Positions 2,612 to 33,322 of a stretch of DNA of 64,000 nt are shown here, one piece after another. Under the pieces are notes generated by a model. That model worked only from the letters and a program-made list of their open reading frames with translations. It made no database searches and was not told where the DNA came from. Each line of letters opens with the position of its first letter. Position 1 is the first letter of the stretch. Source of the DNA: Mariniblastus fucicola (GTDB taxonomy: Bacteria > Planctomycetota > Planctomycetia > Pirellulales > Pirellulaceae); NCBI RefSeq assembly GCF_008087665.1, contig NZ_CP042912.1:5146001-5210000 (forward strand). The letters run 5' to 3'. The position numbers were made by a program, and so were the translations under genes.

Positions 2612-3910
2612 CTATCGAGCCGTCATCGCTTTGTCGGCAATGTCTTTGCGGCACCAGGCACCGTCCCAGCGGATGCATTTGACCGCTTTGTAGGCCTGCA
2701 GTTTTGCAGTCGCCACCGAGTCACCCATCGCGGTAACTCCAAGCACGCGGCCGCCAGTGGTGACGACGTTGCCTTCGCTATCCACCTTCGTTCCTGCATG
2801 AAAGACTTTCACGTCCGGAATTTTGGCAGCTTCTTCAAGTCCGCGAATCACTTTGCCCGTTTCGTATTTTCCCGGATAACCGCCGGAAGCCATCACAACG
2901 CAAACGCTGGGGCGGTCGTCCCATTCCAATGGACCGATCGACGACAAACGCCTTTCACAGGTCGCTTCAATGATGTCGACCAGATCTGTCTTGAGCCGAA
3001 ACAGAAGCGGCTGACATTCGGGATCGCCAAATCGAACGTTGTACTCCAGAACTTTCGGTCCCTGCGGCGTCATCATCAAGCCCGCGTACAGGATGCCCAA
3101 AAACGGAGTCCGCTGACGCTTCATCGCGTGTACCGTTGGCACCAGAACATTGGACTCGACCCACCGCAACGTTTCGTCATCGATGGTCGGCGTCGGACAG
3201 TAGGCTCCCATGCCTCCGGTATTTGGGCCGAGGTCACCATCGAGAGCCCGTTTGTGATCTTCGGCCGGCGGCAACGTCAGAATCGTTTTGCCATCGGTAA
3301 TTGCAAGGATGCTGGCCTCGAAACCTTCGAGCCGATCTTCAATGATAAGCTTGTCACCTGCTGAACCGAATTGCTTTTGCCTGGCGATGATGTCGATCGC
3401 TTCCAAAGCTTCATCGCGCGTCGAGCACACGATGGCGCCTTTGCCGGCAGCGAGACCGTCGGCTTTGACTACCAGTGGCACATCTTCGGGCGTTTCAAAG
3501 TAACGTTCATTGATGAAGCGTTCGGCTCCTTCGGCGTCCCGGAACTCGTGAAAGTCAGCGGTCGGCACGTCAGCGTTGCGCATCACTTTTTTGCAGAAGG
3601 ATTTACTGCCTTCGAGTGCGGCGGCTTCTTTGGAAGGACCGAACACCGACAGGCCAGCGGCTTTGAACGCATCTGCCAACCCATCGCAAAGTGGCACTTC
3701 GGGGCCCGCGACGGTGTAGGCGATATCGTTCTCTTTGGCAAACTTGACCAGCGCAGGAATGTCGGTCGCAGCGATATCGACATTCTCTGCGTCTTGCTGC
3801 GTGCCGGCATTTCCGGGAGCTACGAAAACCCGCTCGACCCGGGGGGATTGAGCTACTTTCCAGGCCAACGCGTGTTCACGTCCGCCGTTTCCGACGATCA
3901 ATATATTCAT
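2612..3910 (-). CDS. purD: Phosphoribosylamine-glycine ligase
   Basis: GAR synthetase: ATP-dependent ligation of glycine to 5-phosphoribosylamine, step two of de novo purine synthesis, in the cytoplasm. The 432-residue length matches the family (about 420-430). The N-terminus MNILIVGNGGREHALAWK is the family signature. The ATP-grasp core shows VVKADGLAAGKGA (about residue 147), the PPAEDHKRA region, GPNTGGMGAY, the FLGILYAGLM strand and EYNVRFGDPECQ. The C-terminal domain includes the usual MASGGYPGKYETG segment. The start at ATG 3910 is the only reasonable one. It stands alone, convergent with the PEP-CTERM gene, with no other pur gene in the window. Confidence 0.97.
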   Translation of the reverse strand: MNILIVGNGGREHALAWKVAQSPRVERVFVAPGNAGTQQDAENVDIAATDIPALVKFAKENDIAYTVAGPEVPLCDGLADAFKAAGLSVFGPSKEAAALEGSKSFCKKVMRNADVPTADFHEFRDAEGAERFINERYFETPEDVPLVVKADGLAAGKGAIVCSTRDEALEAIDIIARQKQFGSAGDKLIIEDRLEGFEASILAITDGKTILTLPPAEDHKRALDGDLGPNTGGMGAYCPTPTIDDETLRWVESNVLVPTVHAMKRQRTPFLGILYAGLMMTPQGPKVLEYNVRFGDPECQPLLFRLKTDLVDIIEATCERRLSSIGPLEWDDRPSVCVVMASGGYPGKYETGKVIRGLEEAAKIPDVKVFHAGTKVDSEGNVVTTGGRVLGVTAMGDSVATAKLQAYKAVKCIRWDGAWCRKDIADKAMTAR

Positions 3911-4111: not shown

Positions 4112-4915
4112 ATGAAATTGAAATTGACCATGGGCGTCCTGCTGGCCGCCGCCGTGCTTTTACCCCAAACATTGTTGGCCCAGGAATCCAAGTCGGATTG
4201 GGGACATCTTTCGGGAACCGTTACCGTCGACGGCGACGTGGAAGCCCCCGAAGAAGAACCTGTCGGTGATCACGCCGACAAGCCCGTCTGCCTGGTCGAT
4301 GGGAAACTGCCCGTGGACGACAACATCGTCGTCAACGCCGAGAACAAGGGACTCCGCGACGTCTACGTCCTGATGTACTTGAAAAAGAAAAAAACGGATG
4401 CTGTTCATCCGTCCTACGAGGAAAAGAAGAAGGAACCTGTGGTTCTGGACAACGTAAATTGTCGCTTTGTTCCACACGCGGTTTTCGTTCGCACCGGCCA
4501 GAAACTGGTGCTGAAAAACTCGGATCCGGTGGGGCACAACTGCCACATCACGACGTTCAACAACGAACACAATCCGAACCTTCCCGCAAACTCAACTGCT
4601 GAAGTCAAGTTCGACGTCGAGGACTCACGCCCAGGCAACGTGACTTGTGACCTGCACAAATGGATGGACAGTATTATCTTCATCCGCGACAACCCGTACG
4701 TTGCAATCACCGATGCCGACGGCAAGTTCACGATCGAAAACCTGCCGGCTGGCGAATGGGAATTCCAGTTCTGGCACAAGAAGGTCGGCTATCTGAAGAC
4801 GCTGGCGATTTCAAACCATGAAGTCTCCAAACGAGGCGTCGCGACGATCAAAGTCACTGCGGGCGAGACGACTGATCTTGGAGAAATGAAGCTGCCTTCC
4901 AAATCGTTCAAGTAG
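4112..4915 (+). CDS. Exported cupredoxin-like (type-1 copper) protein
   Basis: A 267-residue secreted protein. Residues 1-23 are a signal peptide ending LLAQ. Residues about 105-195 form a cupredoxin-like domain: an upstream GHNCH (His142, Cys144, His145) and the later CDLHKWM (Cys179, His182, Met185) give a His-Cys-His-Met type-1 copper set. Residues about 195-260 are a carboxypeptidase-regulatory-like beta domain (DADGKFTIENLPAGEW). Similar planctomycete proteins are often annotated as methylamine-utilisation or plastocyanin-like, but no mau genes are here. It is followed on the same strand by a c-type cytochrome lipoprotein and an oxidase subunit I homologue, so it plausibly shuttles electrons to or from them in the periplasm. 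That role is inference. Confidence 0.8.
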   Translation: MKLKLTMGVLLAAAVLLPQTLLAQESKSDWGHLSGTVTVDGDVEAPEEEPVGDHADKPVCLVDGKLPVDDNIVVNAENKGLRDVYVLMYLKKKKTDAVHPSYEEKKKEPVVLDNVNCRFVPHAVFVRTGQKLVLKNSDPVGHNCHITTFNNEHNPNLPANSTAEVKFDVEDSRPGNVTCDLHKWMDSIIFIRDNPYVAITDADGKFTIENLPAGEWEFQFWHKKVGYLKTLAISNHEVSKRGVATIKVTAGETTDLGEMKLPSKSFK

Positions 4916-5005
4916 TCGTCCGCTGAGCTTGAGTCCATGTCGTGCATGGCCCCTCGCTTCGGGGAGGGGACTGCCGCGACAATATGGAGCCTCGACGATT
5001 CGCTT

Positions 5006-6376
5006 ATGTCGGCCAACAATATTGGAGTACGAGCGTCTTTCCCGAACGTGACTGTGTTGGCCAAACTTCATACCATCTTCGCGACCTTGATTTTTTCGGT
5101 CGCTCTTGTCGCCGTCGGCGGATGCGAAAAAGCTCCCGCGCCGACCTTTCACCTGAACGAAGTTGAGATTCTCAAGCAAGAGAAAGCTTCGCTGGCCAAC
5201 GGCGAGCACTTCGATGATTCGCACGACGACGAAATCCGCAACATTCTCTCTTCGCTGTTTGGCACACCAGATCAGCCCAGGTTTCCGTTTCTCCAAGGCG
5301 ACGAAGATCCGGCACATGAGTTCATCGATTTCGAAAATCTTGAGTGGGCCGCCGGACGAGTCCACAGCGATCAGGATGGAAAACCAATTTCCGGTCTCTA
5401 TCGCGAACATTGCGCTCAATGCCACGGCATCACGGGCGATGGAGCAGGGGCGACGGCAGCGTTTTTAAATCCGTATCCAAGAGATTTTCGATTGTCCAAG
5501 TTCAAGTTCAAATCGACTCCGCTGAGGCGTTCTCCAACCGATCACGATTTGGAACTGGTTTTGCGAAACGGCATTCCGGGCACAGCGATGCCTTCGTTTC
5601 GCACGCTGCCGGATGAAGAAATTCAGGCTTTAATCGACTACGTCAAATATTTGACGATACGTGGTCAGATGGAGCGGATGTTGATCTCGGAGCTCAGTTC
5701 CACCGAAGGCAAGCCGTTGTTGGACATGAGTCATGCCGAAGACGGGGATTTGGTTGCGGCGCTGGCGAAGATCGAATCGACGGATGCTTCAACAGATCGT
5801 GACGACGATGTCGCGGAATCCGATGAATCACGTAGCGCGTTTGAGGAACAGCTCGACTATCTGCTAAACGAACTTTATTTCGAAGGCCCGCTTAAGCGTT
5901 GGAGCAACACCGAAGATGCGGTGACTGAAGTTCCACCTGTTCCCGAATCGATTCGCACGACACATCCGGACCATTCGCAGCTCGTTGAGTTGGGACGCGA
6001 ACTGTTTTATGCCAAAGGCAACTGTGCGCAGTGCCACGGCGATACTGCGATGGGTGACGGGCAGCAAACAAGCTACGACGATTGGACCAATGACTGGATC
6101 AAGTCAGCGGGTGTGGATCCGACAGACAAATCAACCTACCAGGACTTTCTTGATGCAGGAGCACTCAGGCCACGCGCGATCCGTCCGCGAAACCTTCGGC
6201 TGCCCGTCTACCGCGGCGGTGGTCGTCCAGAAGATTTGTATTTGCGAATCAAGAATGGCATTGAAGGGACTCCAATGCCGGCGGCCGCGACGCTCAGCGA
6301 TCAGGAGATTTGGGCGATGGTGGCGTATGTGAAATCGTTGCCGTTCGAACAAGTCGTGCCACAAGAAACAAAGTAG
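5006..6376 (+). CDS. Two-haem c-type cytochrome lipoprotein
   Basis: Periplasmic electron carrier with two cytochrome c domains. Each has a CAQCHG haem-attachment motif (codons at 5411-5425 and 6023-6037). The likely axial methionines are in GIPGTAMPSF and GIEGTPMPAA. A linker of about 120 residues with an acidic stretch separates the domains. The N-terminus carries a lipoprotein signal ending in a GGC lipobox at about 5120, so the protein should be anchored to a membrane facing the periplasm. Start choice is uncertain: ATG 5006 is listed, an upstream ATG at 4937 is in frame, and GTG 5048 or 5054 would give a more compact lipoprotein signal; none has a strong ribosome site. It lies between the cupredoxin gene and the oxidase subunit I homologue and probably donates to or accepts from the latter. 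Confidence 0.85.
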   Translation: MSANNIGVRASFPNVTVLAKLHTIFATLIFSVALVAVGGCEKAPAPTFHLNEVEILKQEKASLANGEHFDDSHDDEIRNILSSLFGTPDQPRFPFLQGDEDPAHEFIDFENLEWAAGRVHSDQDGKPISGLYREHCAQCHGITGDGAGATAAFLNPYPRDFRLSKFKFKSTPLRRSPTDHDLELVLRNGIPGTAMPSFRTLPDEEIQALIDYVKYLTIRGQMERMLISELSSTEGKPLLDMSHAEDGDLVAALAKIESTDASTDRDDDVAESDESRSAFEEQLDYLLNELYFEGPLKRWSNTEDAVTEVPPVPESIRTTHPDHSQLVELGRELFYAKGNCAQCHGDTAMGDGQQTSYDDWTNDWIKSAGVDPTDKSTYQDFLDAGALRPRAIRPRNLRLPVYRGGGRPEDLYLRIKNGIEGTPMPAAATLSDQEIWAMVAYVKSLPFEQVVPQETK

Positions 6377-6619
6377 CCGACTTGCCAAGCGAACGAAGCG
6401 GAACAGCTCTTTCGTTCCCGTCACCGATTTGCTTTGGGGTTGGATTTGAATATTTCGCGTCGGCGGCTCTCACAGCAATTGCAGTGCTGCGTTGTGAACT
6501 TTGCAGCAAGAGACAAGTTAAGATGAAGCCATGCTTTCGCATCGATTCTGAGGCGGAGCAGAAGCAATGGCAGTAACGGTCGACAGAACTTTATCGCGAA
6601 AACGATCCATCCAGACAAC

Positions 6620-8398
6620 ATGGCCGATCCTCTTGCGAATCAACTACCGGGTGCAGAAAGTCAACGCCGCAGCGTGCCAGTCAGGTTTTTCACAACCTGT
6701 GTGTTCGCGACTGACCACAAAGTCATTGGACGACGGTTTCTCTTTTCGTCGCTGATCTGGTTCGCCATCGGAGGACTGTTTGCATTGGCCATCCGCTGGC
6801 AACTGGCATGGCCGTGGAGCGACGTTCCGATTCTGGGTTCGGCCATCAATGGTGAAACCGGAGTTCGGATGTCACCCCGGTTTTACGATCTTCTGTTCTC
6901 GATGCACGCCACGATCATGGTTTTCTTCGTGATGATTCCGATTCTCTTCGGAGCGTTTGGGAACTTCCTGATTCCACTGATGACTGGCGCCGACGACATG
7001 GCATTTCCGCGGCTCAACATGCTGGGCTACTGGTTGATGTGGCCCGCGTTTGGCTGCCTCACTCTCTGCTTTCTACTGTACGCCAACGGACTGTCGGCGG
7101 AATGGACGGTTCCACCGTCGAGCTTACTGTCGGACGTATCGCAGTCGATTAAGTTTGCACAGCAACTTTGGATTCTGTCGCTGCTGTTCGTCGTCGCGTC
7201 ATCGATGCTCGGTGCGATCAACATCCTGACAACGGTTTTGCAGATGCGGTCGCCTGGCATGAACATGATTCGCTTGCCGATGACCGTTTGGGGTTTGTTC
7301 ATCTCGGCGACCCTCCAAGCGATTGCGTATCCGGTCTTGATCGCCGCGTTGATGATGCAGCTGTCGGACTTGACGTTCGGAACAGGGTTCACTGGCCTGA
7401 ACCTGGCCGGAGACGATCTGTTCGCAGTCGACGGAAGCGCCCAAGCGATCCCGTGGCGGCGTTTGTTCTGGTCCGTTTCGCGGCCCGCGGCTTACATCCT
7501 GATCCTGCCGGTGATCGGCATGGTCTCCGACATGATTGCGTGTTTTTCGCGAAAGCCGCTGTTTGGATATCGCCCCATGGTCTGCTCGATCATCGCGATC
7601 GCCGGACTTGGTTTGGCTGTTTGTGCTCATCAGCAGTTCGCCGTTGAAACAAATGGAAGCCTGATGGTGTCTCTAGTGGTTCCGACGACACTGATCGTAA
7701 TCGCGATCAGCATCAAAGCTTTCAACTGGTTCGCCACGATGCGGAACGGACAATTGCAACTGTCGAATCCGATGCTATTCAGCATTGGCGTCGTCTTGAT
7801 GATCATGGTCGGCGGCTTCGTCGGAGTCATCATGTCCGTGCCCAAGATCGGCATGAATCGGGGCACTAACTTTGCCGTCGCTGATCTGCACTATCTGCTT
7901 TTCGGCAGCAGCATTCTGGGTGTTTTCGCGGCGATCTACTTTTGGTTCCCGAAGATGTTCGGCCGGAAGCTGAATCTGACACTGGGAAAGCTTCACTTTC
8001 TGTTTACGTTCTTGCTTCTGAACTGCACCTTCTTGCCGATGTATTTGCTCAAGCAGGCACATCTGCCTGGGACGTTGCCACCACATCAAGCTTCGGCTTT
8101 GGCTGCTGAACCATTCAAGAACATGAGCGACTTCAACGTGTTCATCACCTGGTCGGCGATACTGCTGGGAGCCACCCAGTTGATTTTTGTGGCCAACTTT
8201 CTGGGAAGTCTGTTTTTCGGCAAGAAAGCTGAAGCGAATCCGTGGCGATGCAATTCCCTGGAATGGACGACGCCCAGCCCGCCGGTGAGAGGAAACTTTG
8301 AGACTCAACCGCTGGTTTATCGTGGTCCGTATGAATATGGTCATCCTGATCGAGATCAGGACTTTTGGCCCCAGAGTGAGCCTGAAACCAGTAGTTAG
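6620..8398 (+). CDS. Haem-copper oxidase subunit I homologue lacking the O2-reduction site
   Basis: A 592-residue polytopic inner-membrane protein that aligns with A-type cytochrome oxidase subunit I (CtaD) over its length: FATDHKVIG at the N-terminus, the MTGADDMAFPRLN loop, SMLGAINILTT, MRSPGMNM, and SRKPLFGYRPM. The low-spin haem a ligands are kept (His96 in SMHATIM; His424 in ADLHYLL). The catalytic centre is not: the HPEVY motif reads RPAAY (Arg288 for the CuB His, Ala290 for the proton Glu; Tyr292 kept); the paired CuB histidines read HQ (His337, Gln338); the haem a3 ligand is Asp422; and the Mg-site HD is replaced. No subunit II or III gene adjoins. It is probably an electron-transfer membrane protein fed by the upstream cupredoxin and cytochrome c; automatic annotation would call it an oxidase. 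Confidence 0.85.
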   Translation: MADPLANQLPGAESQRRSVPVRFFTTCVFATDHKVIGRRFLFSSLIWFAIGGLFALAIRWQLAWPWSDVPILGSAINGETGVRMSPRFYDLLFSMHATIMVFFVMIPILFGAFGNFLIPLMTGADDMAFPRLNMLGYWLMWPAFGCLTLCFLLYANGLSAEWTVPPSSLLSDVSQSIKFAQQLWILSLLFVVASSMLGAINILTTVLQMRSPGMNMIRLPMTVWGLFISATLQAIAYPVLIAALMMQLSDLTFGTGFTGLNLAGDDLFAVDGSAQAIPWRRLFWSVSRPAAYILILPVIGMVSDMIACFSRKPLFGYRPMVCSIIAIAGLGLAVCAHQQFAVETNGSLMVSLVVPTTLIVIAISIKAFNWFATMRNGQLQLSNPMLFSIGVVLMIMVGGFVGVIMSVPKIGMNRGTNFAVADLHYLLFGSSILGVFAAIYFWFPKMFGRKLNLTLGKLHFLFTFLLLNCTFLPMYLLKQAHLPGTLPPHQASALAAEPFKNMSDFNVFITWSAILLGATQLIFVANFLGSLFFGKKAEANPWRCNSLEWTTPSPPVRGNFETQPLVYRGPYEYGHPDRDQDFWPQSEPETSS

Positions 8399-8542
8399 AC
8401 CGGTGGAATCTCCATATGTCAGGAACTTTTGACTGGCTACTTTGAAGAAATGAACTTTACGAGCATAATGTGCGTATCGAAAGTTTTGGCCAGCATTTCA
8501 ACGCATTTCCCCACACAAACGCACTGTAGTGGGTCCAACTTC

Positions 8543-10303
8543 ATGATCGAGAACTCCCTCCCCCTCATTCTGGCGCAAGACATCCGCGTTACCTATTGGC
8601 TGACGCCTGTTTGGATTCTGTCTGCTGGAATCACGCTCGGGTTTTTGCTGGTACTGTTGAGCTATTTGAAGATTTCGATTCTGCAGAGAATCCCGGGCAT
8701 CAATTCGGTCGCCTCAAAACGAGGCTCATTTATTGTCGGCGGCATCGTGCTGACATTGGTCTATCTCGGCTGCTACGCGGCGTTTCTGTATTGGGTCCAA
8801 GCGTTCACTTTCGATCTGAACCGGGATCTACAACCGATGCTTTATATGCTGCCGGTTTGCGCGCTGTTTGGATTTGGCGCCTGGACGCTGGTTGCGAAAA
8901 AGTTCGCGGGAGAGTTTTCGTCGCAGTTCAATGAAGGCCTGCTGAAGTGGCTGAACCGAATCTGCATCGCGTTCACGATCTTTTTCGTCATCGGATTCCC
9001 GCTGGCCAAGTTCAACGGCTTTGGAGTGATCGAGCCTGTCGAGGAACCGGTCGAGTTGATGAAGTCTCTGGCACGACTCCCGTTTGCTACCAGCGTGACG
9101 GACAGCATGACCATTGAGCCGAGCGAAAGGAACCACGCCGGCGACCAGTTTCCGGTAAATTTTCACGGTCGGGAACTCAAGGGAATTCGTATTAATTCAA
9201 CAGAACCGATCGAGGTCGCGGCGGAGCCCATTCGCGGAGACCTGCTGTATATCCTTCGCGTCGACCCTTCAGAAGAACTTCGATCGTACAGCCCGAGGTC
9301 TGACGGGCAGGGCATGTTCAAGCATGAAACGTACAACGAGATCTACATCAACAACCTTGGCGACGAGCCTGCTCAGGTAACGGTAACCATCGGAACCGGT
9401 CCGTTTTACAGCGAGGTGATTGTCATTCCAATCGTAGCGGCGATCGTGCTGCTGACGTACCTGCTGCCTCTGATGTTAGCCAGCGCCTTGCCGAAAATCT
9501 CTGCCATCGCTCTGTCGACATTCAAGACAGAAGTCTCCCAGCCGCTGTTTTTGCTGGTCATTCTGGTCGGTGCAGCGTTCATCGTGACCGCGATCTATAT
9601 CCCGTACAACACCTTCGGTGAAGACATCAAGATGTACAAGGATTCAGGTTTGAACCTTTTGCGTGTGATGGCCATTTTCACGGCGGTTTGGGCCGCAAGT
9701 AAGTCAGTCGCCGAAGAGATCGAGGGGCGGACCGCGCTGACCGTGCTCTCCAAACCCGTTAGTCGCCGGCAGTTCATCCTCGGGAAGTTTTCCGGGATCT
9801 CGATGTCGGTCGCGCTGCTGTTTTTGCTGCTGGGCTTGTGGTTCATGATCTGGGTCGCTTACAAACCAGTTTATGATGGCCAAGAGGCGGCAAACAAGTT
9901 GAGGGACTGGGCCCAGCCGTTCACGGAATCCTTCAATATTGCTCCGGGATTGTTCCTGTGCTTCCTGGAGATCGTGATTTTCGTCGCGATCAGTGTTGCC
10001 ATTTCGACTCGCATGGGCATCCTTGCGAACTTTCTAATCTGTGCCTCGATCTATGTGCTTGGACACCTGACGCCGATGATCGTTCAGTCTTCCGTTGCTC
10101 AATTCGAACCCGTCGTGGTGTTTGGTCAACTGGTGTCGACGGTCTTTCCGGTCCTGGACCACTTTGACATTCAGGCGGCAATCAGCAGGAATACGTCCGT
10201 TCCGCTGGCGTATCTCGCTGAAATGTTGGTGTACACGGGGCTCTATTCGACGGTCGCGATGCTTCTTTCACTGGTGTTCTTTGAAGACCGTGACTTGGCG
10301 TAG
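8543..10303 (+). CDS. ABC-2 type permease-like membrane protein
   Basis: A large membrane protein of about 586 residues. Two or three N-terminal transmembrane segments are followed by a soluble insert (about 9000-9410) and then a six-helix ABC-2-like permease half. The latter carries the characteristic cytoplasmic motif EEIEGRTALTVLSKPVSRRQF followed by LGKFSG, as in NosY- and Wza-type ABC-2 permeases. Start ATG 8543 (MIENSLPL) is preferred over the upstream ATG 8429 because the extra residues look non-coding. No ABC ATPase gene lies beside it, so its partner must be elsewhere, unless it has another role. It follows the oxidase homologue by about 145 bases on the same strand and may belong to the same unit, for example in maturation of the redox proteins. 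That link is inference. Confidence 0.7.
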   Translation: MIENSLPLILAQDIRVTYWLTPVWILSAGITLGFLLVLLSYLKISILQRIPGINSVASKRGSFIVGGIVLTLVYLGCYAAFLYWVQAFTFDLNRDLQPMLYMLPVCALFGFGAWTLVAKKFAGEFSSQFNEGLLKWLNRICIAFTIFFVIGFPLAKFNGFGVIEPVEEPVELMKSLARLPFATSVTDSMTIEPSERNHAGDQFPVNFHGRELKGIRINSTEPIEVAAEPIRGDLLYILRVDPSEELRSYSPRSDGQGMFKHETYNEIYINNLGDEPAQVTVTIGTGPFYSEVIVIPIVAAIVLLTYLLPLMLASALPKISAIALSTFKTEVSQPLFLLVILVGAAFIVTAIYIPYNTFGEDIKMYKDSGLNLLRVMAIFTAVWAASKSVAEEIEGRTALTVLSKPVSRRQFILGKFSGISMSVALLFLLLGLWFMIWVAYKPVYDGQEAANKLRDWAQPFTESFNIAPGLFLCFLEIVIFVAISVAISTRMGILANFLICASIYVLGHLTPMIVQSSVAQFEPVVVFGQLVSTVFPVLDHFDIQAAISRNTSVPLAYLAEMLVYTGLYSTVAMLLSLVFFEDRDLA

Positions 10304-28809: not shown

Positions 28810-29051
28810 GCCGTTGTCAAAACAAGTCCGGCACAACTTTCTGGTTGCGAAAAAGCGATCTGTGAAACAGTCGTTCCGCCCAAAGACGTCCGTTGCTATC
28901 ACGTCGGTGAACTGAACGAAGTGATCTTGCCCAGATTCCGCGGATTGGCGAAAACAGCAAGTGGTTCCATGGAAGGGACAGAATGCGATCCCCAAAACTG
29001 GATCGCCAAATACCGAATCTCATCTCTCAATCGTCAAGGAAGGCGTTGCAG

Positions 29052-30173
29052 ATGAAGCGAAAACCACAATTCTTTTCACCCACAGCGCTTTCGTTGTGCG
29101 TTTTCGTTTTCGGCGTCACATTGGCGAACTGCAATGCGCAGAATCTGCAAACCAGTTCCGCAAATCAAACGCAGTTCTACGGTCAGTGGAGTCCGCCGGC
29201 GGAAACTCAACAGGAAGTGACTCCAGACCCAACCAAAGACAGATTCCGGGAGCTGTTTCCTCCAACGAAACTGCAACCCATCGCAGATCGCTCAGCCAGC
29301 CGCTATCCGCTGCCGCAGAAACCGGCGCCGATGGTCGAAAGCTTGCCAAAGGCTCGTCCTCTGCAACCAATTAGCCAGAACAATTTTCTGCAAGGATCGT
29401 TCTCACAGGAACCCAGCCCTGGCGGAGACTTTGCACGCGTGAACCATCACGAGGCTTCTACGGCAGAAGCCGTTATGCCACTGCCAAAAACCAACTCGAA
29501 CGCTGACTGGCCGCCCATTTCTGAATCGCTCGACGCCAATCAAATGGTCGACGGCATCAAACAGGAATCGGAAACAGCTCTCTCGGGGATCGTCGGATCG
29601 ATGCAAACCAGTGGCAAGGATTTCTGGAGCCAGTTCCAGGCAAACGGTGGCTGGGGAGAGAAAATCGCAAGCGTATTCAGCGGCGGCGATGATCGTTTCC
29701 GTAAAGTCTTCGGCTCGTTGGCAGTCGTCATTGGCGGCTACCTCGCGTTTGTCTGGCTCATGCGAAAATTCAATCTGTCGAACAATCGTGGGATCCCGTC
29801 GGAAGTCATCGAAGTCATCGGCAATGCTCCCTTTGGACCACGAAAGAATCTACAACTGGTCCGCCTGGGCAGCAAACTTCTGTTGCTGATGAGCGGCCCG
29901 GAAGGCACTCACCCGGTTGGCGAAATTACTGACGCCGCGGAAGTCGACTATTTAATTTCGCTGTGCAACGGCAAAGGAACCAAGGCGACTCGATCGGTGA
30001 TGTCGGCCGTCAAAAAGATTGGGCGTGGAGTTGCGGAATCGAGTGCTCCCGGACGGACGCTGCACCCGACCAGCCCCGGACCTTCTGAGAAGACTTTCTC
30101 TGCGTCGCAATTGGTGCAGGCTCTTGAGTCGATTCAGGGTTCCAGTCGTTCGAACACCGTTTTCGAAGCGTAG
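29052..30173 (+). CDS. fliO: Flagellar biosynthesis protein FliO-like
   Basis: Assembly factor for the flagellar type III export gate, in the inner membrane. ATG 29052 follows a good ribosome site (AAGGAAGG, 29036-29043). The 373-residue product has a signal-like N-terminus (residues 1-30), a long Ser/Pro/Gln-rich periplasmic region to about residue 210, one transmembrane helix (VVIGGYLAFVWLMRKF) and the cytoplasmic FliO domain with IEVIGNAPFGPRKNLQLVRL and KLLLLMSG. Typical FliO is only about 100-150 residues, so the periplasmic extension is unusual. It is followed 5 bases later by fliP. Confidence 0.85.
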   Translation: MKRKPQFFSPTALSLCVFVFGVTLANCNAQNLQTSSANQTQFYGQWSPPAETQQEVTPDPTKDRFRELFPPTKLQPIADRSASRYPLPQKPAPMVESLPKARPLQPISQNNFLQGSFSQEPSPGGDFARVNHHEASTAEAVMPLPKTNSNADWPPISESLDANQMVDGIKQESETALSGIVGSMQTSGKDFWSQFQANGGWGEKIASVFSGGDDRFRKVFGSLAVVIGGYLAFVWLMRKFNLSNNRGIPSEVIEVIGNAPFGPRKNLQLVRLGSKLLLLMSGPEGTHPVGEITDAAEVDYLISLCNGKGTKATRSVMSAVKKIGRGVAESSAPGRTLHPTSPGPSEKTFSASQLVQALESIQGSSRSNTVFEA

Positions 30174-30178
30174 AAAGC

Positions 30179-31144
30179 ATGACTCGTTTCTCTCAACTAA
30201 TTCCAACCGTTGCGCTGCTGGCCATCCTGTTGCTACCAGCCAGCGCTGTAGATGCGTATCAATCGCCGCTGGCTCCGATGCCGATTGGCACCAACGATGC
30301 CGTTTCGATTGAAAGTCCGACAGGCACGTTGGTGTCACCACAAAGTGCGCCTTTGCAGAACCTGCCTTCGCAAAGTGCGCCATCACGCGAATCCGAAACT
30401 GCAGCCCCGCCGGAAAATGTATCGGCGAGCATCGATCAACTGCTATCGGACCAGACGGAATCTCTGACGGCGCCCGAGTCGCTGCCTTCGTCGATCAAAC
30501 TGGCTGTAATTCTTGGCGTCCTGTCACTGGCGCCGGCGATCATTTTGATGTCCACGTGCTACGTCCGAATCATTGTCGTGCTGACCTTGCTGCGACAGGC
30601 CTTTGGAGTGCAGCAACTGCCGCCGACGCAGGTGCTGACGGCGCTTTCGATGTTCGTGACGCTGCTGGTGATGACTCCGGTTTGGCAGGAAGTCAAAACG
30701 GAGGCCTTTGACCCGTACACGCGTGCGGAGAATCCGATTTCGTGGGAAGAGGCCTGGAGCAACGGCGTGTCACCAATGAAGCGGTTCATGTTGCGGCAAA
30801 TTCAAATCGCAAACAACGAAGATTCCATTGCTGTTTTCTATCAGAACTTGCCACAAGAATCGGCTTCTGATTCTGCCGAGCTTCCGACGGAATTGGAAGA
30901 CGTCCCGATCAAGATCGTATTGCCGGCGTTCCTGATCAGTGAACTGAAGGTCGCTTTCTTACTGGGGTTTCAAATCTATCTACCATTTCTGATTCTCGAT
31001 CTGGTCGTTTCGTCGGTCACGGTGTCGATGGGCATGGTGATGCTGCCGCCGACGATGGTGAGCTTTCCGTTGAAGCTGATTTTGTTCGTGATGGTCGATG
31101 GATGGAATCTGGTGATGGGGATGTTGCTGCAAAGCTTTGGTTGA
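30179..31144 (+). CDS. fliP: Flagellar export gate protein FliP
   Basis: Core export-gate protein forming a ring of five with FliQ and FliR. The 321-residue product starts with a signal peptide (LLPASAVDA), then a Ser/Pro-rich stretch to about residue 90, then the FliP domain: ILMSTCYVRIIVVLTLLRQA, ALSMFVTLLVMTPVW, and the C-terminal MGMVMLPPTMVSFPLKL with DGWNLVMGMLLQSFG. These are diagnostic. The periplasmic insertion (about residues 170-240) is family-typical. The gene is in the order fliO-fliP-fliQ-fliR-flhB. Confidence 0.97.
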   Translation: MTRFSQLIPTVALLAILLLPASAVDAYQSPLAPMPIGTNDAVSIESPTGTLVSPQSAPLQNLPSQSAPSRESETAAPPENVSASIDQLLSDQTESLTAPESLPSSIKLAVILGVLSLAPAIILMSTCYVRIIVVLTLLRQAFGVQQLPPTQVLTALSMFVTLLVMTPVWQEVKTEAFDPYTRAENPISWEEAWSNGVSPMKRFMLRQIQIANNEDSIAVFYQNLPQESASDSAELPTELEDVPIKIVLPAFLISELKVAFLLGFQIYLPFLILDLVVSSVTVSMGMVMLPPTMVSFPLKLILFVMVDGWNLVMGMLLQSFG

Positions 31145-31247
31145 CGTAAGGCGATTGCAATAACTGGTACTGAGCCACGCGACTTTCAAACTCAGTTCAC
31201 TCAAAAACGTAACACTGTCCGACTTAAACACAGCCAAACCAAAAACC

Positions 31248-31790
31248 ATGGAACCTGAATCAGCAATCGAAGCCAGCCGCGAAGCGATCAAAGTCTGTTT
31301 CATGGTCGGCGGACCCATCTTGGCCGTTTGTCTAATCGTCGGTCTGTTGATGGGACTGGCACAAGCCATGTCTCACATCCAGGACCAGGCTCTGGCAACC
31401 GTCCCGAAAATCCTCGCCATCATGGCGGTCATTGGCTTGGCTCTGCCGTGGTTCGCGGATCGCATGATGGATTTCTCCAAAGAACAATTTAGCCGACCGT
31501 TCATGGCAAAAACTGCTTCTGCGTCCAGGACGGAACCCGTCGCCGAGCACCAAGTTGAATCATTGCTTGCGCCTGAATCGACATTTGACGAAAGCTACTA
31601 TCCGCGTCTTGATGCGCCACCGCTTGAGTCATCGCGGCCATCGCCATCGCGTCCGGTGGCGACGCAGGCTTCGTTTCAAAAACAGAAAATCAATCCGGTT
31701 CCCGGCGTCGAGAAAAAAGAGTCGCCGAACCCGTTCTCGCTTCCCAGCTACCGGTTTAGTCGCCGACCGAGCGAAAACATCGAAGGGTAG
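31248..31790 (+). CDS. fliQ: Flagellar export gate protein FliQ with C-terminal extension
   Basis: Residues 1-85 form the two-helix FliQ hairpin: AIEASREAIKVCFMVGGPIL, then GLLMGLAQAMSHIQDQALAT, VPKILAIMAVIGLALPWF and MMDFSKEQF. The usual length is 86-90 residues, but this protein is 180. The extra 95 residues are Ser/Pro/Glu-rich and disordered-looking (LESSRPSPSRPVATQ). The tail does not shift the frame relative to its neighbours and ends 9 bases before fliR, so it appears to be genuinely encoded. Its role is unknown. The gene is in the export operon. Confidence 0.93.
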   Translation: MEPESAIEASREAIKVCFMVGGPILAVCLIVGLLMGLAQAMSHIQDQALATVPKILAIMAVIGLALPWFADRMMDFSKEQFSRPFMAKTASASRTEPVAEHQVESLLAPESTFDESYYPRLDAPPLESSRPSPSRPVATQASFQKQKINPVPGVEKKESPNPFSLPSYRFSRRPSENIEG

Positions 31791-31799
31791 GGCAGGGCG

Positions 31800-32567
31800 G
31801 TGGTTTCAGCGTTCCTATTGGTCTTCTTTCGCATCGCGGCGATGGTTTTCACCGCTCCGATTTTGGGCAGCAAAGCCGTTTCGGCAAAGCATCGAGTTCT
31901 CGTTTCACTTGTCCTGGCCGGAGTCAGTTTTTCGGCAATGCCACAGGCGGCCACAAATGCCATTCCTCTGGATGCGAACTTCATAGCGCCGCTGGCCAGC
32001 GAGATTTCGATCGGCGTCAGCCTCGGGCTGGGGACGATGATCATTTTTTCCGCGGCACAAATGGCAGGCAACATCCTCGGGCAACTCGCTGGCTTGCAAT
32101 TCTTCGACCAGCTTGACCCAACCACCGGCGGTACCAGCTCACCTGTCGGCCAATTGTTTGGACTAACTTCTTTGGCAACGTTTGCTTTGATGAACGGGCC
32201 GGATCTGGTTGTGGGGTCGGTCCTGCACACGTTTCACCAGCTCCCCCCAGGCACAGCAATCGCCAGCGTCGGCTTGCTGGAACTGATCCCACAGATCCTG
32301 CAACAGAGTTTCATTCTCTCGATCAGCGGCGTCGGCCCCGGTATCGCAGCGATGCTGGTAACGAGCATTACTTTCGGTTTTGTATGCCGCACGTTCCCGC
32401 AAATGAATTTGACATCGCTGGCTCTCGGTTCCAACGTATCCATCATGTTCCTGGCAATCTTTCTGACGCTCGGAGGTTGTATTTGGCTGTTTGTAGATGA
32501 CCTGGGACCGACGTTGGAACAGATCCAATCGGTATTCGTCAGTTCCGCGACAGGATTCAGCCAATGA
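31800..32567 (+). CDS. fliR: Flagellar export gate protein FliR
   Basis: A 255-residue membrane protein completing the FliP/Q/R gate. Conserved parts are LVFFRIAAMVFTAPILGSK at the start, ISIGVSLGLGTMIIFSAAQ, NILGQLAGLQFFDQLDP, LTSLATFALMNGP and the last helix LTLGGCIWLFVDDL. Initiation is at GTG 31800 (no in-frame ATG before the fliQ stop), and its N-terminus is a few residues shorter than in enterobacterial FliR. The stop overlaps the flhB start as ATGA, so translation is coupled. Confidence 0.95.
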   Translation: MVSAFLLVFFRIAAMVFTAPILGSKAVSAKHRVLVSLVLAGVSFSAMPQAATNAIPLDANFIAPLASEISIGVSLGLGTMIIFSAAQMAGNILGQLAGLQFFDQLDPTTGGTSSPVGQLFGLTSLATFALMNGPDLVVGSVLHTFHQLPPGTAIASVGLLELIPQILQQSFILSISGVGPGIAAMLVTSITFGFVCRTFPQMNLTSLALGSNVSIMFLAIFLTLGGCIWLFVDDLGPTLEQIQSVFVSSATGFSQ

Positions 32568-33322
32568 ATTCTTCCAATGAGGAACGTCAGCATCCGGCCA
32601 CCGCAGCGCGGCTTAAGCGAGCGCGTGAAGAAGGCGACGTTGCTCACAGTGACGAACTGGCAACCGCGATTCAAATGGTCGCCGGAGTTGCGACGCTTTG
32701 GTTTTGCGCCGCCACCATTGGAAACGGTTTGAGGAAGACGACGATTGGGCTGTGGAGCTCCAGTTCGATCAGTGCTTCGCCGGACGCAATCGTGCAAACG
32801 TCTCAGTCGCTTTTGTGGACGACGATGCGACTGGTCTTGCCGTTTCTGATCTCAATGTTCGTCATCGGAACGCTGGCTCATGTGATGCAGACCAGATTTC
32901 TGATCAAACGACCCAAGATCTCACTTTCATCGATCAGCCCGACGCGCTGGTTTGGAAGTATTTTTTCCGCGAAGGGGTTCGGCCAGCTGATCATCGCGTC
33001 GCCGAAGGTTCTGGTCGCGTTAGGGGTCGGTGCGGCGTCTGTTTGGAGTCACCGCGAATCGATCTTCATGCTGGGCGGCATGCCCACCAACCTGCTTGCA
33101 TCCGCTCTACTGCAGATCACAGCCACCGTCGGAATCAGCGTCGCCGTTTCGCTACTGGCATGTTCTATCGTGGACTATGGAATGCAATGGTACGGATTTC
33201 AACAGCGGACCCGGATGACGGACCAGGAAATGCGAGAAGAAATCCGCGGCCAAACCGGTGACCCGCAGATCGCCAAAGTTCGCCACCAGCGAATGCGTGA
33301 AATCACTGGAGAGCATTCGTAG
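32564..33322 (+). CDS. flhB: Flagellar export protein FlhB, lacking the autocleavage domain
   Basis: Export-gate protein that normally switches substrate specificity. The 252-residue product has a typical N-terminus (ATAARLKRAREEGDVAHSDE), the four transmembrane helices of FlhB-TM, and the linker DQEMREEIRGQTGDPQIAKV. It then ends with RHQRMREITGEHS. Canonical FlhB is about 350-380 residues and continues into a cytoplasmic domain with the NPTH self-cleavage site; none of this is present, and the 22 bases between its stop and the convergent gene leave no room for it. It is a natural truncation or a secondary loss. Whether export still works is unknown. Confidence 0.9.
   Translation: MNSSNEERQHPATAARLKRAREEGDVAHSDELATAIQMVAGVATLWFCAATIGNGLRKTTIGLWSSSSISASPDAIVQTSQSLLWTTMRLVLPFLISMFVIGTLAHVMQTRFLIKRPKISLSSISPTRWFGSIFSAKGFGQLIIASPKVLVALGVGAASVWSHRESIFMLGGMPTNLLASALLQITATVGISVAVSLLACSIVDYGMQWYGFQQRTRMTDQEMREEIRGQTGDPQIAKVRHQRMREITGEHS

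Follow-up and report, generated by a model that had tools for sequence, protein, structure and literature searches.

The stretch of DNA analysed here, 64,000 nucleotides of the Mariniblastus fucicola genome (hereafter the window), holds an open reading frame that runs from an ATG at 6620 to a stop codon ending at 8398. Its 592-residue product matches PF00115 (COX1) in Pfam at E 7.9e-99, and residues 27-567 align to solved aa3 subunits I with a best E of 2.9e-92, which bears out both the coordinates and the A-type subunit I homology proposed by the first-pass annotation. An AlphaFold2 model of the protein (mean pLDDT 73.4, pTM 0.81) resembles aa3 subunit I in Foldseek at a TM score of about 0.8. 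With this aa3-like fold and the PF00115 match, the protein, CoxA, is classed as a homologue of haem-copper oxidase subunit I, by sequence of the A type. The features around it are the following, the name purD being our assumption:

2612-3910, minus strand: purD, upstream syntenic anchor and rate control gene
4112-4915, plus strand: periplasmic protein resembling cupredoxins, from the same operon, below the Pfam cut-off and placed by synteny
4937-6376, plus strand: dihaem cytochrome c with two CxxCH motifs, a conserved upstream part of the operon under constraint like that in relatives
6439-6576, plus strand: probable coxB (subunit II) fossil, from tblastn and a CoxB profile, with an in-frame stop at 6574-6576
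6620-8398, plus strand: CoxA-like subunit I homologue without the binuclear centre, from Pfam and alignments
8429-10303, plus strand: ABC-2-type permease directly downstream, just below the Pfam cut-off, also present in the sister species

Matches to CoxA were found in 57 of 60 genomes of a family sample (E <= 1e-50), in 28 of 28 genomes of a genus sample (E <= 1e-40) and in 145 of 296 genomes of an order sample (E <= 1e-170). Within the family sample, an orthologue group at approximately 45-56% identity is clearly separated from CoxA paralogues at 32-40%. An orthologue at E < 1e-160 is present in 23 of the 28 genus genomes, the window's included; G066 has a CoxA fragment, and G065, G075, G079 and G081 have a paralogue match alone. 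All five are drafts, with the matches in G065 and G066 lying near contig ends, so absence of the oxidase is not claimed for them. For the survey of ligands, 160 loci with a match were reduced to 110 distinct proteins, 108 of which, the window's included, scored above 450 bits; the two lower ones were excluded. The CoxA of the sister species (G082) is 62-63% identical to that of the window and groups with it at 0.994 support in the CoxA tree. Horizontal replacement of coxA is unlikely given this grouping and the neighbouring genes common to both species.

Operon structure and the missing subunit II

In relatives, where Pfam was run on representative loci, the gene order is purD (opposite strand), cupredoxin-like, dihaem cytochrome c, coxB, coxA, ctaB, coxC, COX4_pro, SCO and DUF420. 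In the sister species the block stops after coxA and is followed by the ABC-2 permease, with ctaA, ctaB, coxC, SCO and DUF420 located on another contig. The window genome shows the same split: the permease at 8429-10303 marks the point where ctaB, coxC and SCO are absent, and the second block lies at approximately 6.30 Mb, about 1.15 Mb distant. It includes the CoxC of the same oxidase (L171:8036-9316, G000:C1 near 6.301 Mb), whose HFVD motif has lost its Asp. This genome also has oxidase genes in a caa3-like operon (at 141 kb) and, at 321 kb, one for a third PF00115 protein.

In the 243-base gap before coxA, a tblastn search of the whole window matched 44 residues to the sister's CoxB at 34% identity and E 0.007; the match covers the C-terminal region surrounding the CuA motif and leaves the first approximately 209 residues unmatched. 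Against a profile of 100 CoxB proteins the segment scores 9.3 bits, a value reached by none of 1000 shuffles (913 scored at all, with a best of 7.0). Positions 6439-6576 are thus a probable coxB remnant, and this fossil is all that the locus retains of the CuA-bearing subunit II of an A-type oxidase. A genome-wide search found no A2-type coxB elsewhere; the sole COX2 match lies at 143 kb in the caa3-like operon and shares 31% identity with the sister's CoxB. Among the 90 of the 108 distinct loci that have at least 1.5 kb of upstream sequence, a CoxB match of at least 100 bits precedes coxA in 88. The two exceptions, the window genome and G070, are also the only two among the 108 CoxA proteins with changed CuB ligands.

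Metal and haem ligands of CoxA

The ligand positions below were read from alignments to the 108 distinct orthologues (window included), and the residues given by the first-pass annotation (H96, R288, A290, Y292, H337-Q338, D422 and H424) were all correct:

6905-6907, plus strand: His96 codon, low-spin haem a ligand, kept
7481-7483, plus strand: Arg288 codon, at a position where the CuB His is found in 107/108
7493-7495, plus strand: Tyr292 codon, position of the cross-linking Tyr, kept (Tyr in 107/108, one stop read as X)
7628-7633, plus strand: His337, kept (His in 107/108, Gln in G070), and Gln338 in place of the third CuB His (His in 106/108, Pro in G070)
7859-7864, plus strand: Arg414-Gly415 in place of the Mg-site His-Asp, alignment uncertain by one residue (His in 105/108 and Thr in two at 414; Asp in 105/108, one Glu and one X at 415)
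7883-7885, plus strand: Asp422 codon, at the position of the haem a3 His (His in 106/108, one other X)
7889-7891, plus strand: His424 codon, second low-spin haem ligand, kept (His in 108/108)

The loss of CuB, a3 and Mg-site ligands (Arg288, Gln338 and Asp422; the Mg His-Asp) and the retention of His96, His424 and the Tyr292 position, as first annotated, are confirmed by these orthologues. Within the HH pair the second His is indeed replaced, with the addition that the first, His337, is kept. One reading had to be withdrawn: Ala290, taken initially for a lost Glu, is Ala in 108/108 orthologues and is the ancestral state of the subfamily, whose motif is YSHPAVY. We take the A2-like A-type subfamily to be defined by this motif where others have GHPEVY; a literature search found no paper on YSHPAV. 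The window protein has VSRPAAY, in which the shared Ala persists and Tyr286, present in 107/108, has become Val as a derived change.

Alignments around the ligand positions are ungapped to solved aa3 subunits and to orthologues, except that a single residue is gapped near the Mg ligands: here the window has NRGT versus HDT and lacks both His and Asp under either gap placement. The first-pass annotation had allowed that another alignment might restore the ligands; none does, the regions being ungapped save for that one residue even to the sister at 62-63% identity. It had also suggested modelling of the haem sites. Although the model does have the aa3-like fold, the sister, which keeps its ligands, shows pLDDT <50 in nearly the same segments, so the window model says nothing specific about the active site, and low confidence was dropped as a sign of its collapse. 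Residues 79-81, 155-169 and 479-499 fall below 50 in the window model but not in the sister's.

The proposal that the substitutions are fixed in a clade was not upheld: the sister retains all ligands and other orthologues of the genus keep them as well. The window protein is the only one of the 108 that lacks CuB and a3 ligands together, and on the alignments the loss is private to the window lineage. Retention of ligands by close homologues had been named as grounds for abandoning a non-oxidase reading; it is indeed observed, and it makes the loss lineage-private without making this protein an oxidase. Of the sites of a functional oxygen reductase, the two low-spin haem His (H96, H424) are present, the three CuB His are represented by R288, H337 and Q338, and the high-spin haem His is D422. 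The pair R488-R489, presumably the propionate-binding arginines, is lost too, which may weaken haem a binding as well. Judged from its residues, the protein cannot carry a normal haem a3/CuB centre, and the oxidase, with one CuB ligand, no a3 ligand and no CuA subunit, is dead on sequence grounds. It is very improbable that the enzyme still works, with Arg, Gln and Asp as unusual metal ligands or with the caa3 CoxB as partner: His337 and Tyr292 do remain, but Asp occupies the a3 ligand position, a single CuB ligand is left, both the Mg site and the propionate Arg pair have been lost, and the only COX2 found in the genome is the distant 31% homologue.

Compared with A2-like aa3/caa3 subunits I (PF00115) of Pirellulales, the window protein shares whole-length homology, the aa3-like fold, the low-spin ligands and synteny with cytochrome c and cupredoxin, whereas it lacks two CuB His, the a3 His, the Mg site, the YS tyrosine, the PRR arginines and coxB. 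Altered ligands or substrate residues are also known in the haem-copper superfamily from nitric oxide dismutase and qNOR-like relatives; those belong to the NOR branch and keep a catalytic binuclear centre, whereas the window protein derives from an A-type CoxA.

A few other orthologues show isolated changes. In L005 (G027) and L094 the Mg-site His is altered (in L005 the Asp also), with CuB and haem ligands unchanged. One in-frame stop each was flagged in the CoxA matches L043/L072 (G080), L036 (G073) and L005 (G027), that of L043 falling at the Tyr292 position in a draft genome; these stops may be draft-assembly errors or matches overrunning the gene end.

Distribution of losses, rates and the fate of the oxidase core

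Among 228 positions conserved in at least 97% of 107 orthologues, the window protein changes 58 and keeps 170, versus 3 changed and 225 kept in the sister. With helix boundaries from the AlphaFold model, and with helices I, II, XI and XII assumed after aa3 structures to serve haem a and VI-IX to serve a3/CuB, 24/60 invariant sites are lost (36/60 kept) in the latter and 4/48 lost (44/48 kept) in the former (Fisher p 1.6e-4, for a grouping chosen after the losses had been seen). In three divergent orthologues the same helices keep 45/48 (haem a) and 54-58/60 (VI-IX). Elsewhere in the window protein, the sites kept are 11/11 in helix III, 7/8 in IV, 11/14 in V, 10/14 in X and 51/73 outside helices, and the stretch 95-144 keeps 33/33. 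Overall, the protein largely retains the ligands of the low-spin haem and the helices beside them.

G070 (L052/L061), a second lineage of Mariniblastus, resembles the window in that coxB is lost, the adjacent CuB His pair is changed (HH to QP) and the CoxA frame is intact. Its coxB remnant comprises about the first 20 residues followed by a stop (13.8 bits), and no A2-type CoxB was found elsewhere in its genome. It differs in that the first CuB His (position 288), the a3 His and the Mg site are kept and 14/233 invariant sites are changed, versus 61/233 for the window protein and a median of 0 among other orthologues. A simple count of such losses is not a safe guide, since the divergent orthologues L081, L063 and L062 have 27-42 changed sites with all CuB and haem ligands kept. 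Omega is not raised in G070, either for coxA (0.05 vs 0.033 background, 2dlnL 2.0) or for coxC (0.086 vs 0.06). G070 and the window stand apart in the CoxA tree, so the two coxB losses are taken as independent, with G070 seemingly less far along than the window.

Evolutionary rates were estimated with our own codon branch model on a subset of the taxa fetched; the test of coxA, purD, cytochrome c and cupredoxin used 10 of 15. Synonymous sites are near saturation and single-branch omegas are accordingly rough; protein branch lengths are independent of the saturated sites. For coxA, omega is 0.223 on the window branch, 0.041 on the sister branch and 0.035 in the background (0.244 vs 0.033 with a slightly different taxon set), with omega = 1 rejected at 2dlnL 31.5 and equality with the background at 66.8. 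By region it is 0.19 (residues 20-269), 0.33 (270-420) and 0.185 (421-592), and omega = 1 is rejected in each (2dlnL 18.7, 8.2 and 4.5); since every region is raised, relaxation is general and not limited to the active site. For coxC, omega is 0.223 vs 0.067 (2dlnL 8.0 against the background and 5.9 against 1, the latter a weak rejection), and dN/dS of coxA and the distant coxC is about 3-7 times that in relatives. Omegas of cytochrome c and cupredoxin do not differ from the background. Several estimates were left unused: ctaB on the G000 branch was unstable (0.07, then 0.717 in another run), SCO on that branch rejected neither omega = 1 nor the background, and the stem values of purD (18.7) and DUF420 (20.1) ran off.

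Protein branch lengths (window, sister) are 0.575 and 0.020 for CoxA and 0.601 and 0.168 for CoxC. The other values are 0.028 and 0.048 for purD, 0.162 and 0.181 for cytochrome c, 0.086 and 0.140 for CtaB and 0.078 and 0.087 for SCO; cupredoxin (0.179, 0.066) and DUF420 (0.178, 0.070) are somewhat faster in the window. Neutral simulations, with substitutions only and the sister gene as start, gave a mean of 8.7 stops in coxA at 66% identity with 0/300 runs stop-free, and 1% stop-free at 80%; for coxC, 1/300 runs were stop-free at 70% and 2% at 80%. The actual coxA has no frameshift and four in-frame indel events relative to the sister. Unconstrained decay fits coxA badly, because omega = 1 is rejected and the frame is intact.

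The explanation we favour, at a probability of about 0.5, is that CoxA is a dead oxidase under weakened constraint, persisting as a membrane protein with low-spin haem or, free of haem, with a structural role. The gene would have come down by vertical descent from a Pirellulales operon for an ordinary A2-like haem-copper oxygen reductase, an operon that was split in the common ancestor of the window species and its sister. After the two species separated, the window lineage would have lost coxB, the CuA electron entry, and the oxidase would no longer have been fed by that route. The binuclear centre would then have shed the a3 His and all but one CuB His, along with the Mg site, the YS tyrosine and the propionate Arg pair. 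CoxA would have survived as an intact membrane protein of 12 helices that keeps both low-spin ligands, perhaps still binding haem, filling some residual role and probably paired with CoxC, which is accelerated on the same branch. We infer this order of events, whereas the homology and synteny, the lack of an A2-type coxB, the lost ligands, the acceleration and the intact frame are observed. Deletion of subunit II together with acceleration of subunit III, neither of which the first-pass annotation mentions, indicates that the whole oxidase core was dismantled. Counting against this explanation are the general relaxation of coxA, the loss of R488-R489, the weak rejection of omega = 1 for coxC, the somewhat faster cupredoxin and DUF420, and the omega that stayed low in G070 after its coxB loss; no positive selection was seen.

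The main rival, somewhat less probable though a serious contender, is plain decay under way: CoxA and CoxC became useless once coxB was lost and are relicts yet to meet a stop, with the accessory genes serving other haem-copper oxidases. Relaxation across all three coxA regions, the accelerated CoxC, the normal CtaB and SCO branches, the caa3-like operon and third PF00115 protein, and G070 as a possible early stage all suit slow decay. It is opposed by the rejection of omega = 1 overall and in each region, by the rarity of stop-free neutral runs, by the absence of frameshifts and by the uneven placement of losses over the helices. Maintenance of the protein is favoured over free decay by its intact frame under constraint and by the low-spin half that it has kept.

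The first-pass annotation went further and proposed selection for another function; the poor fit of unconstrained decay is as it expected, and a new function is a possibility. One form of it, which we consider doubtful, is that repeated loss of subunit II turns subunit I into a selected low-spin-haem pseudo-oxidase without a binuclear centre, kept with subunit III as an electron relay, haem or redox sensor, or scaffold. A related proposal is slightly less probable again: CoxA/CoxC would form a low-spin-haem conduit from the adjacent dihaem cytochrome c or cupredoxin to a new acceptor, or a haem/redox sensor. The kept low-spin ligands, the stretch 95-144 with all 33 invariant sites and the cytochrome c (both CxxCH motifs) and cupredoxin still adjacent at background omegas are consistent with it, but no acceptor site is seen, no known clade has the change fixed, a single sequence cannot reveal new conserved residues, and the two electron carriers may do no more than supply other oxidases.

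Few membrane enzymes are as conserved as subunit I of haem-copper oxidases, and here the subunit is intact, fast-evolving and without its catalytic centre beside a probable coxB fossil. A literature search judging relevance on titles and abstract openings, with most subscription journals outside its coverage, found no precedent in print. The window, its intact sister and G070, apparently at an earlier stage, form a natural series on a respiratory core after loss of electron entry, in which one may ask whether the low-spin haem half can survive alone; they offer a rare view of a respiratory enzyme becoming something else or dying. Elsewhere in the window, positions 28983-33322 hold a cluster that resembles flagellar export genes by eye (fliO/fliP/fliR/flhB-like).
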